The translations under genes and the position numbers were made by a program. From Flavobacteriales bacterium (lineage in GTDB: Bacteria > Bacteroidota > Bacteroidia > Flavobacteriales_C > GCA-002722245), in NCBI GenBank assembly GCA_023251095.1, contig JAHEZL010000021.1, positions 1 to 64,000 of the forward strand: 64,000 bases of DNA, written 5' to 3'. How positions within the stretch are numbered: position 1 is the first letter of the stretch; each line of letters starts with the position of its first letter. Under the pieces are notes generated by a model. The model worked only from the letters and a program-made list of their open reading frames with translations. It was not told where the DNA came from and searched no databases. Below, piece after piece: positions 2,473 to 30,326 of this stretch.

Positions 2473-2595
2473 TCTTAATTTTTTGTGAAGCTTAAAAGTA
2501 AATAAAAAGTTTATAGTTTTCGCCGTTTGACTTTGTCATTTGACCGAAGATATTTTACCGTTCACCTATTTTTTGGAAACGAATATGTTAAAACA

Positions 2596-2626
2596 TTGTG
2601 TCGACACATAAATTGACTTACATTTG
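2596..2626 (+). promoter_or_regulatory. Promoter of the tetR/RND efflux operon
   Basis: TTG at 2596-2598, a 20-base spacer and TACATTTG at 2619-2626 match the Bacteroidota sigma-ABfr consensus TTG-N19/21-TAnnTTTG. The tetR start codon is 24 bases downstream. Confidence 0.65.
2597..2608. promoter_or_regulatory. Perfect 12-bp palindrome in the tetR promoter, probable operator
   Basis: TGTGTCGACACA is its own reverse complement. It overlaps the -33 element and spacer of the promoter reading into the TetR gene, which is where an autorepressor would block polymerase. That the regulator binds here is inferred from position and symmetry. Confidence 0.55.
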
Positions 2627-2650
2627 GAAACATTTTAAAAGAAAAGCTTT

Positions 2651-3301
2651 ATGGAAAGTCAGGAATACGAGCTGTACCGCAGAACAACCGATGTGTACAT
2701 GAAAAACGGAATCAAGAATATTACCATGGATGACATGGCGAAGGAATTAAAGGTTTCTAAAAAAACATTATACAAATACGTGAAAGACCGTCCGGAACTG
2801 GCGGCAAAATCAATGGAGTGGAAATTGGCTCACGATAAAAAAGTGGTGAATGACATTGTTGCTAAAAATTTAAATGCTATTGAAGAGCTCTGCGAGATCA
2901 GCAATTTTTATTGCAGCAATCTGGTGAAAATGCATCCTTCTTTACATTTTGATCTGGAAAAATATTATCACCATGCATGGAGTCAGTTCATTGAATACAG
3001 AAATAGTTTTATGTTCAATACCATGTTGTCCAATATCAAAAAAGGAATCAGAGACGGTTTTTACAGAGATAATTTTGACATTGAAGTGATAGTAATCTTG
3101 TATATCATGAAAGTGGATATGGTTTTTGATCCGAGAATTTTCCCGGTATCGAAATTCAAATTTGCAGATGTATATATTGAAATGGTGAAATATCATCTTT
3201 CAGGAATTGCAAGTGAAAAAGGATTGAAAGAAATGAATAGATTGATGGAGCTTAAATGCCTTCATATACCTAAACCAGTAGACTTACAAATAGCCTCCTA
3301 G
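2651..3301 (+). CDS. TetR/AcrR-family transcriptional regulator of the efflux operon
   Basis: A 216-residue protein with an N-terminal TetR helix-turn-helix at about residues 24-45 (ITMDDMAKELKVSKKTLYKY) and a helical C-terminal ligand/dimer domain without recognisable specificity. TetR proteins usually repress adjacent genes and release DNA on binding a small molecule. It lies 19 bases ahead of the TolC-like gene and in the same direction, so it is probably the first gene of the efflux operon and autoregulated through the palindrome in its promoter. The pump substrate and the ligand cannot be read from the sequence. Confidence 0.93.
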   Translation: MESQEYELYRRTTDVYMKNGIKNITMDDMAKELKVSKKTLYKYVKDRPELAAKSMEWKLAHDKKVVNDIVAKNLNAIEELCEISNFYCSNLVKMHPSLHFDLEKYYHHAWSQFIEYRNSFMFNTMLSNIKKGIRDGFYRDNFDIEVIVILYIMKVDMVFDPRIFPVSKFKFADVYIEMVKYHLSGIASEKGLKEMNRLMELKCLHIPKPVDLQIAS

Positions 3302-3320
3302 GCTAAAATAAATACAACAA

Positions 3321-4697
3321 ATGAAAAAGAATTTTTTCCTTCTGGCTCTAAGCCTATGTACCTCCGTGATCTATGCACAGGAATTTTCCCTGAAAGAAGC
3401 CATTGATTATGCGATCATAAACAACGCCAATCATAAAAATGTAGTAGTTGATCAGCAGATTGCTGATATGAAACAAAAAGAAGTTTTGGGTTTATGGAAG
3501 CCCCAATTATCAGCAAGTTTGGATGTGAAAGATTATTTGCAACCGCCAACTGCTGTTTTTGACGGAGCTAAATTTCCGGGCTCTCCTGCGTTTTTAGCTT
3601 CATTGCCTATTGATGATCCTCAACGGTACTCTAAAGGGAGTTTTCAGATTCAATACAACAATACTGCGGGAATTCAAGCTTCTCAACTTATTTTTAACAG
3701 TGATGTTTTAGTGGCGATTCAAGCATCTAAGTCTTATAGTGAGTTGATGCAGAAAAATGTTGATCGATCAAAAGTTGACATTACTGTAGCAGTTACCAAA
3801 GCATACTACAACGTGTTGATCAGCAGAGAGCGCATAAAATTATTGGACGCTCAGTTGGAAAGAGTTAAGAAGATGCTGGATGATACAAAGCTGTTAAATG
3901 AAAAAGGTTTTGTAGAAAAAATTGATGTGGATCGAGTACAATTGGGATACAATAACCTTGTTACTGAAAAGGAAAAAATTGGTCGTTTGGTGGAATTAAC
4001 ATCTGCGCTTTTAAAATTCCAAATGGGAATGGACATGCAATCAACGATTGTATTGAAAGATTCACTGGATATGAATGCTCCTATTCAGGATTTGCCGATA
4101 ATAAAAGAGAAATTTGATTATTCATTGCGCGCCGATTATTCCATGACGCAACTTCAGCTGCATCTGATGGAATTGGACTATAAAAGAAATAAATTAAAAT
4201 GGATGCCAACAATAGCGGCCTATAGTAATTTCAGTACTATCAACATGAGTCCGAAATTTGATCCATTTAATTTCGGAGTTCAATCCAGTCCAATTAAACA
4301 ATGGTATCCATTAAGTTTAATAGGAGTAACCATGAATGTTCCTATTTGGGATGGCGGACAAACCTATTACAAAAAACAACAAGCTAAATTGAATGTATTG
4401 AAAACACAAAATACCTTACAGATGATGGAATCGGGTATTGATATGGATATTAAAATATCTTCAACTACTTATCAAAATGCTCTTTCTTCTCTTACTACTC
4501 AAAAAGAAAACATTCAGTTGGCACAAAAAGTTTATGATGTTACAAAAATAAAATATGAGCAAGGTGTTGGAGGAATTTCGGATGTGGTGAATGCAGAAGC
4601 TTCTTTAAAAGAAGCTCAGGTTAATTACTTCAACGCGATGTATGAATATTTGGTCGCCAAAACAGATTACGAAAAAGCAACGGGTTTAATAAAATAA
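3321..4697 (+). CDS. TolC-family outer membrane efflux channel
   Basis: The 458-residue protein starts with a signal peptide (MKKNFFLLALSLCTSVIYAQ) and continues with two OEP repeats rich in long amphipathic helices. The family landmarks are FSLKEAIDYAIINNANHKN near the start and the second repeat ending VYDVTKIKYEQGVGGISDV...AEASLKEAQVNYFNA. It would form the outer-membrane duct and periplasmic alpha-barrel of a tripartite pump. It is the second gene of the operon, with adaptor and RND pump following at gaps of 11-32 and 21 bases, so the whole exporter is encoded together. Confidence 0.95.
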   Translation: MKKNFFLLALSLCTSVIYAQEFSLKEAIDYAIINNANHKNVVVDQQIADMKQKEVLGLWKPQLSASLDVKDYLQPPTAVFDGAKFPGSPAFLASLPIDDPQRYSKGSFQIQYNNTAGIQASQLIFNSDVLVAIQASKSYSELMQKNVDRSKVDITVAVTKAYYNVLISRERIKLLDAQLERVKKMLDDTKLLNEKGFVEKIDVDRVQLGYNNLVTEKEKIGRLVELTSALLKFQMGMDMQSTIVLKDSLDMNAPIQDLPIIKEKFDYSLRADYSMTQLQLHLMELDYKRNKLKWMPTIAAYSNFSTINMSPKFDPFNFGVQSSPIKQWYPLSLIGVTMNVPIWDGGQTYYKKQQAKLNVLKTQNTLQMMESGIDMDIKISSTTYQNALSSLTTQKENIQLAQKVYDVTKIKYEQGVGGISDVVNAEASLKEAQVNYFNAMYEYLVAKTDYEKATGLIK

Positions 4698-28543: not shown

Positions 28544-28547
28544 AAGT

Positions 28548-29114
28548 ATGATGAAAAGATTAATAATAATTGTTTGTAGTATTATCTCAATACATATTCA
28601 TGGACAAAATCTCATTAACAATGGAGATTTTGAAGAGTATGTGTTTTGTCCAAGAGGATATACAAAAACATCAATTAAAGAATTGTTGCCTTTTTGGTTA
28701 ATTCCTAATAAAGGGACGACAGATTACTTCAATGAATGCGGAGTAAAAGAGTCCAAAATCCCATCTAATTATTTTGGTAAATTAAAGAGTGCGAGTGGGA
28801 AAGGCTACGTAGGCCTGCATTGTGGTGGTATGCCTAATACTAAAGAGTATAATAAAAATTATCGAGAATATATATCAATGGAGTTAACGCAACCTTTAAT
28901 AAAAGATTCTATTTATTGTGTTTCATTTTATTACGCGATAGCTCCTAATTCCCAAAATACAATTAATGAATTGGGAGTTTATTTTTCAAATGAAAAGGTG
29001 TATGTAAGGACTGATAAGAATTTGGAATTTATTCCTCAGGTGAAAAATTTATCACCTCTTATTAAATCTGGATGGGGGGTGTTTTGCCAAGAATATAAAG
29101 CTACTATTAAATAA
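28548..29114 (+). pseudogene. Truncated secreted protein (N-terminal domain of a Bacteroidota OmpA-type family)
   Basis: From the ATG at 28548, a signal peptide (MMKRLIIIVCSIISIHIHGQ) is followed by NLINNGDFEEYVFCPRGYT, a TDYFNECG stretch and YVGLHCGGMPN...YREYISMELTQPL. This is the jelly-roll-like N-terminal domain that in Bacteroidota is usually followed by further strands and an OmpA peptidoglycan-binding domain. The 188-residue frame stops soon after SGWGVFCQEYKATIK, in the middle of that domain, and nothing recognisable follows before the Fic gene. I read it as a remnant, possibly cut when the Fic cassette arrived. The alternative is a genuine short protein. Confidence 0.6.
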
Positions 29115-29124
29115 TCTACAGCAA

Positions 29125-29227
29125 TTTCTCATGTATAGATTTTATACTTGAGAAATTTGTCATGTATAAAATTTATCATTATTTTTACATGATAAAACAA
29201 TCAAGTATAAAATCTATACATGAGAAA
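29125..29227 (+). promoter_or_regulatory. Operator array of the fic gene: 27-bp inverted repeat plus a third copy of the motif
   Basis: Arms 29125-29151 and 29201-29227 are exact reverse complements. Within each is the unit CATGTATA-N5-TATACTTGA (29130-29151 and, inverted, 29201-29222). A third, weaker copy starts at 29161 (CATGTATAAAATTTAT), exactly 31 bases after the first. The right-hand copy contains the fic start codon. Each unit is itself partly symmetric (GTATA/TATAC), as expected for a dimeric HTH protein. Confidence 0.75.
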
Positions 29228-30326
29228 AAAGGCACAAATAAGGAATATCAATAACGAAAAACCTTTTAATAATCTTCCTCTTTTACCTCCTTCAAAGGAA
29301 AAGATAGAAACAATTAAAGTACTTCGTCAATTGGTAAAATCATCTGTAGCCTTAGCAGAATTAAAAGGACTAGCAAAAATTTTACCGAATCCCAATATCT
29401 TACTCAATGCAGTAATTTTAAAAGAAGCTAGTGCCAGTTCCGAAATTGAAAATGTAATAACCACCCAGGATAAGCTTTATCAGGCTTTATCGGCTAAAGC
29501 CACGCAAGTAGATAGTGCTACTAAAGAGGTATTGCGTTACAGGGAAGCAATGCTCTACGGATTTCATTTTGTTCAAAAGAAAGAATTCTTAAACACTAAT
29601 GCGATTATTGAAATTCAAAAAATTCTGGAAGAAAACGCCGCAGGCATTAGAAAGTTGCCTGGTACTGCTCTTCGTAATGCAGCTACCGGAAAAGTAATTT
29701 ATACTCCTCCTGATAATATTGATAATTTAACTTTGTTGTTGAAAAACTTTGAAAAATACGTGAATGAGCACGATGATATTTCTCCTCTCATAAAAATGGC
29801 GGTGCAGCATTATCAGTTTGAAAGCATACATCCTTTTTATGACGGTAATGGTCGAACAGGAAGAATAATAAATATACTTTACCTTATCCTAAATGGATTA
29901 CTGGAGAATCCAATATTGTATTTAAGTGCTTATATCATTGATAACAAAACAGATTACTATCGTTTGTTACAGGAAATACGAATCAAGGACAACTGGGAAG
30001 ACTGGGTATTATACATCCTAAAAGGAATAGAGCAAACGGCTAATGAAACTATAGTTAGGGTAAATGAAATTAGTCAACTGTTTATCAAAACACAGGAATT
30101 GGTAAAGAAAAAAGCCCCTAAGTCTTACAGTAAAGAATTAATTGAATTGCTCTTTGAGCATCCTTATTGCAAAACGGAATACCTCACGGATCGCTTTGGC
30201 ATTTCACGTATAACAGCGTCTAAATATTTAAAAGAGCTTGAAAAAATTAATGTACTTGAATCCAAAAAGGCTTGGAAAGAAACTTTGTACATCAATACAA
30301 AGCTGTTTAATTTACTTAAAAAGTAA
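29220..30326 (+). CDS. Fic-domain protein with C-terminal winged helix-turn-helix
   Basis: A 368-residue class II Fic protein. Fic enzymes transfer AMP (or other phosphate groups) to hydroxyls of target proteins. The inhibitory motif S-x-x-x-E-N is at residues 73-78 (SSEIEN) ahead of the core, the flap is at about 159-165 (VIYTPPD) and the complete active-site motif HPFYDGNGRTGR is at 204-215. Near the C-terminus (about 305-360) is a winged HTH (CKTEYLTDRFGISRITASKY). The gene has no antitoxin partner and its promoter carries an array of inverted repeats that even covers the start codon, so autoregulation through the HTH is likely. The 3' end overlaps convergent recJ by 11 bases. Confidence 0.93.
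   Translation: MRKKAQIRNINNEKPFNNLPLLPPSKEKIETIKVLRQLVKSSVALAELKGLAKILPNPNILLNAVILKEASASSEIENVITTQDKLYQALSAKATQVDSATKEVLRYREAMLYGFHFVQKKEFLNTNAIIEIQKILEENAAGIRKLPGTALRNAATGKVIYTPPDNIDNLTLLLKNFEKYVNEHDDISPLIKMAVQHYQFESIHPFYDGNGRTGRIINILYLILNGLLENPILYLSAYIIDNKTDYYRLLQEIRIKDNWEDWVLYILKGIEQTANETIVRVNEISQLFIKTQELVKKKAPKSYSKELIELLFEHPYCKTEYLTDRFGISRITASKYLKELEKINVLESKKAWKETLYINTKLFNLLKK

Follow-up and report, generated by a model that had tools for sequence, protein, structure and literature searches.

A contiguous array of 103 bp (positions 29125–29227 of the window, the whole stretch of 64,000 nucleotides that was analysed) was found in front of a Fic-HTH gene of the SoFic family. We conclude with high confidence, from computational evidence, that the array serves SoFic as an operator for autoregulation, to which dimers of the protein would bind via their C-terminal winged helices and repress their own gene. 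The preliminary description had put forward an operator array for the adjoining Fic-HTH gene that overlaps its start codon, which is borne out by conservation among orthologues; its further proposal, that the Fic protein itself binds the array, is supported by the sequence comparisons as the most likely one.

The array comprises six half-sites of 13 bp each with the consensus TTnTCATGTAWA, which start at 29125, 29143, 29156, 29184, 29197 and 29215 and alternate in orientation (+ − + − + −). Taken in pairs, these give three palindromic operators, 31, 41 and 31 bp long, in which the half-sites are 5, 15 and 5 bp apart. Operator O1 (29125–29155) is a 31-bp palindrome consisting of TTTCTCATGTATA (29125–29137, +) and TATACTTGAGAAA (29143–29155, −), separated by 5 bp. 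O2 (29156–29196, 41 bp) consists of TTTGTCATGTATA (29156–29168, +) and TTTACATGATAAA (29184–29196, −) with a 15-bp spacer that holds the −7 box, and exceeds O1 and O3 by one helical turn. O3 (29197–29227) is again a 31-bp palindrome with a 5-bp spacer, in which ACAATCAAGTATA (29197–29209, +) is followed by TATACATGAGAAA (29215–29227, −), the latter containing the ATG. A repeat search returned inverted-repeat arms of 46 nt that are 87% complementary (29125–29170 and 29182–29227), and the six-site template scored z = 12.7 on the array against dinucleotide shuffles, far beyond chance. The earlier observation is thus confirmed and was understated: the three motif copies claimed are real, although the half-sites number six, and the perfect 27-bp inverted repeat (29125–29151/29201–29227), the exact 31-bp direct spacing (29125 to 29156) and the position of the ATG (29220) within the last copy can all be read in the sequence. 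No second copy of the array was matched in its own 3.6-Mb genome, in which it was found only here, and a genome-wide search for the 23-bp palindrome gave no further copy with fewer than 2 mismatches. A regulon elsewhere in the genome was considered and rejected, the only candidates being weak 2-mismatch matches, with 1 match per strand for the backwards-pattern control.

The gene (29220–30326, + strand) is solitary, lies between rodA and recJ, and encodes a predicted SoFic-family Fic adenylyltransferase of 368 aa, as judged from Pfam, PADLOC and structure-chain matches. The protein has a Fic_N domain (residues 35–115, Pfam), the class II inhibitory motif SSEIEN (residues 73–78; pattern (S/T)xxxE(G/N)), the Fic active-site motif HPFYDGNGRTGR (residues 204–215) and a C-terminal winged HTH (residues 288–362), within which the predicted recognition helix SRITASKYLKELEK (30204–30245, + strand, residues 329–342) was delimited by the HTH pattern. 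The PADLOC SoFic profile covers residues 21–367 with 379 bits (E = 7.9e-114), Pfam Fic_N, Fic and SoFic-like_C each score above cut-off, and full-length matches of ~327 bits were obtained to the solved SoFic proteins of Shewanella (3EQX/3ZCN) and E. coli (9VJC). The score for the NCBIfam SoFic equivalog is 435 bits against a cut-off of 550, and the protein is therefore a member of the SoFic family and not a strict equivalog. By family membership, it is predicted to be a solitary anti-phage AMPylating toxin, with both toxicity and protection expected.

In a genome of the same genus (G004), the ends of rodA and recJ are separated by ~12 bp that hold nothing else, so that the SoFic segment represents an insertion. 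No antitoxin gene was seen downstream of the window SoFic, the next ORF being recJ on the opposite strand. A 189-aa secreted-looking ORF (28545–29114), whose N-terminus weakly resembles the BT_4411 family (E = 1.2e-4), fills together with SoFic the rodA–recJ gap that is almost empty in G004. At the rodA–recJ junction of genome G003, a long inverted repeat, GAGTAGTGGCGATAGATCCTTCCTTCGTCAGGAGGACA... (~3270–3400 of L158), looks like a repetitive palindromic element.

A sigma-ABfr-type promoter is predicted within O2 (29156–29187, + strand), with TTTG at 29156–29159, a 20-bp spacer and TAnnTTTA at 29180–29187, boxes that come close to the Bacteroides consensus TTTG/TAnnTTTG (PMC7366714). The three palindromes thus lie around the predicted promoter of the gene itself. 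Of 48 well-fitting arrays, 28 have a TAnnTTT[GA] box whose position relative to the array centre is +2 or +4, which places the promoter at the centre and accounts for the longer middle operator. We infer that the transcript starts near 29192, giving a leader of ~28 nt.

The motif, whose absence upstream of orthologues the preliminary description had named as a refutation, is present there: the array is kept at the same position in 18 sequences from several Bacteroidota families, including the window gene, to which the other members are 68–82% identical. The mean column information is 0.2–0.3 bits upstream of the array and 1.1–1.6 bits over most of it; conservation stops sharply at the left edge of O1, where it passes 1.1 bits per column. 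The flanks beyond are mostly unrelated among the orthologues, short pieces being shared only by a few near pairs, and hence gene and array move as one unit. In 15 of the 18 the array is in register with the ATG and the −7 box lies at one fixed distance from the start codon; the other three (L044–L046) have lost O3 alone, with O1 and O2 kept and a GGAGG-like stretch where O3 was. In the orthologues the left half of O3, which would be part of the leader, is without the CATG core (TCAGG, TCAAG, TCCGG), which O1 and O2 mostly retain, and an upstream ATG is absent from 17 of the 18 predicted leaders. We read this change as probably reflecting that a false start codon is avoided while the DNA site is kept under pressure. 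At two genes 64–67% identical to the window SoFic (L060 and L070) the array was not detectable (template z not above 3); their recognition helices differ (ERKAASRYL and NRKTASNYL), and therefore the operator there may have been lost or altered past detection.

The arrangement is shared far beyond these orthologues. The survey covered 127 distinct SoFic upstream regions, the gammaproteobacterial part being drawn from plasmid and E. coli records, and spacing was analysed in 104 regions whose identity is below 57%. Significant repetition of a 9-mer was seen in 40% of the SoFic upstream regions vs 2.4% of control stretches, and the repeat words vary by subfamily (TCATGTAWA, CGAGGGTAAA, TGTCGA, TGAACATAT, TTTAGTG and CTTTACA). 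In the 104 distant regions, the spacing of same-strand repeats has peaks at 30, 40/41 and 70/71 bp and nowhere else, with combined scores of 13.9, 13.2/11.8 and 10.0/6.2, respectively. Generic promoter periodicity was rejected as a source of these peaks, since 88 ordinary promoter regions have none at the same distances. A template of six half-sites (+ at 0, 30 and 70; − at off, off+40 and off+70; threshold z > 3) fits 60% of the 127 SoFic genes vs 0 of 42 control stretches, and the remaining ~40%, L060 and L070 among them, do not reach the threshold. Wrong pitches fit rarely (24–26/34–36 in 5% and 34–36/44–46 in 2%), and partly overlapping pitches, which contain some of the true geometry and score for that reason, fit 19–44%. 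The invariant 30/40 geometry is present in Bacteroidota, alpha- and gammaproteobacteria, and what operators of unrelated sequence keep is the spacing rather than the pairing.

Upstream of the E. coli Sofic gene, whose CTD sequence is identical to that of the crystallised 9VJC, ATATGTCGAT repeats are located at −209, −169, −98, −58 and −28, i.e. with pitches of 40, 71, 40 and 30. Two further E. coli records were noted. A TGTCGAT/AAACATAT array like those of the E. coli/Salmonella SoFic lies at ~1460–1600 in strain GPEC709 (L167), is followed by no annotated SoFic gene, and is perhaps a remnant after gene loss; in strain S10 (L165), a frameshifted SoFic (1233–2308) still has its operator array, and a second Fic family gene follows directly (2520–3501). 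The 40/41-bp pitch likewise occurs at 20 more distant Fic-HTH genes (L168–L187, ~30% identity, outside SoFic-like_C), with repeats such as TTAACTATA or TTAAATAAG, and the array design may therefore extend to the whole Fic-HTH group.

The letters of the operator follow the recognition helix of the protein encoded behind it. The helix SR(I/V/L)TA pairs with TGTAWA, KTVGNYL with CGAGGGTAAA, KRQ(T/A)A with TGTCGA, and SRTTLTKYM with TGRACATAT. In 2393 pairs whose Fic domains are less than 55% identical, the similarity of the operators rose with the identity of the recognition helices (r = 0.29, partial 0.30; Mantel p = 0.001), a modest correlation obtained with a crude motif comparison, and showed no correlation with Fic-domain identity in the same pairs (r = 0.002). 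Counting against the association, certain unlike helices, AKRQTA and SRTTLT, have similar-looking motifs. Paralogues within one genome differ in their operators (genomes G000, G088, G279, G320 and G350), and the window's own genome includes two paralogues with different operators. The statistical association suggests that the winged helix sets the operator sequence, and since the operator letters track SoFic's own helix, self-repression of the toxin gene is most likely.

We propose that SoFic dimers would occupy the six half-sites through their C-terminal winged helices, as three adjacent operators aligned on one face of the DNA (31 and 41 bp being ~3 and 4 turns). Bound SoFic would cover the start codon as well as the promoter's −7 box and block RNA polymerase, and transcription of the toxin would thereby be kept low; once SoFic is titrated off the array, repression would be relieved. 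Beyond this, it is conceivable, though unlikely, that the array acts as both silencer and sensor, by analogy with CbFic2, whose activity changes on DNA: a row of DNA-bound SoFic dimers would be off both transcriptionally and enzymatically, and damage to or loss of the host chromosome during infection would release a pre-loaded pool of active toxin and open the promoter. If that were true, Fic-HTH defence proteins would in general be activated by way of 30/40 arrays with a recognition-helix code.

Could a protein other than SoFic bind the array? Many defence genes are under the control of separate WYL/HTH regulators, and a different host-encoded regulator, e.g. of a defence island, might bind here with SoFic merely as its target. 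This is improbable: array and gene travel together between families although the flanks are mostly unrelated, and the same geometry recurs across Bacteroidota, alpha- and gammaproteobacteria. Moreover, operators that follow SoFic's own helix and differ between paralogues of a single genome sit poorly with one host regulator common to all of them, and autoregulation fits both.

Another possibility is that the inverted repeat works in RNA, either as an attenuator or through the 27-bp stem, which would mask the start codon, as the preliminary description had suggested, and so regulate translation. The strand does fold very stably (−52.4 kcal/mol, z = −13.1), and the stem would be part of any transcript that reads through from the upstream ORF, but the strong folding of the whole strand arises because palindromic DNA always folds so. 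The predicted transcript begins within O2 and thus lacks the left arm. Folding of the predicted leaders gave z from −2.5 to +1.9, near 0 as for shuffles in most orthologues, among whose leaders no conserved stem pairing the start codon was found. The long O1–O3 stem is far weaker in every orthologue than in the window genome, the left half of O3 has a mismatch and not a compensating pair, and the spacing kept across unrelated sequences comes without kept pairing. The RNA function is thus highly improbable, and the proposed hiding of the start codon is not upheld. A mobile palindromic element of MITE or REP type, landed by chance at the start codon, would explain the terminal inverted repeats, which at 46 nt are long and nearly perfect. 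It is refuted by copy number and conservation, the array being single-copy in its genome and kept in register with the ATG in all but the three sequences lacking only O3, and retains a negligible probability.

Autoregulation through the array would bear, in several ways, on how SoFic is silenced and then set off by phage, a question still standing in the literature (PMC12249575). Fixed geometry with changing letters throughout the family points to the C-terminal winged helix as a sequence-specific DNA reader, the array rule predicts the operators of the crystallised E. coli and Shewanella proteins, and dozens of natural helix–operator pairs are available for deriving a recognition code. The arrays also open the way to ask if DNA binding controls AMPylation, as it may do in SoFic by analogy with CbFic2.

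Among the closest known proteins, the Shewanella SoFic (3EQX/3ZCN) and EcSofic (9VJC; PMC12249575) have the same family and architecture as the window SoFic. Dimers are established for EcSofic (PMC12249575), and its gene has a TGTCGAT array with 40/30 pitch; operators of the TGTCGA type are observed in E. coli and predicted from the helix in Shewanella, whereas that of the window SoFic is TCATGTAWA. Unlike the window SoFic, EcSofic was reported with a downstream antitoxin, AS1 (PMC12249575); that AS1 could contribute to regulation as well counts against the autoregulation model. In the open-access literature covered, SoFic was still without a demonstrated DNA-binding activity as of 2023 (PMC10628234), and the main text of the 2025 EcSofic paper does not contain the terms DNA-binding, transcription or helix-turn-helix (PMC12249575). 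CbFic2 of Coxiella burnetii, like the window SoFic a class II Fic with an HTH, forms dimers more readily on DNA, which switches it from AMPylation to deAMPylation; it was studied with random DNA and histone targets and has no specific operator known (PMC10628234), in contrast to the array of SoFic.

CccR of Yersinia pseudotuberculosis, a Fic-HTH toxin, is the close precedent for such autoregulation: repression of its own promoter has been demonstrated, requires the dimer and runs through inverted repeats near the −35 and −10 boxes, to which the HTH binds (PMC9755527). Like the window SoFic, CccR combines an N-terminal helical domain, a Fic domain and a C-terminal HTH in one chain, with class II inhibition. 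However, the CccR operator is a single 46-bp site, AGATAATCAT-N26-ATGATAATCT, whereas that of the window SoFic has six half-sites in a 31-41-31 arrangement reaching into the start codon, and CccR is a secreted effector whereas SoFic is a defence protein. The 380-aa chain of 7xux, which we take to be CccR, aligned with the window protein over residues 145–287 only (E = 8e-10) and not over the full length; with the alignment confined to the Fic core, the window SoFic would work like CccR by analogy and is not its orthologue. In the type II toxin–antitoxin system Phd-Doc, a complex with a Fic-fold toxin also binds repeated palindromes at its own promoter. There the DNA-binding domain comes from the antitoxin, whereas the window SoFic unites toxin, inhibitory helix and DNA-binding domain in one polypeptide.
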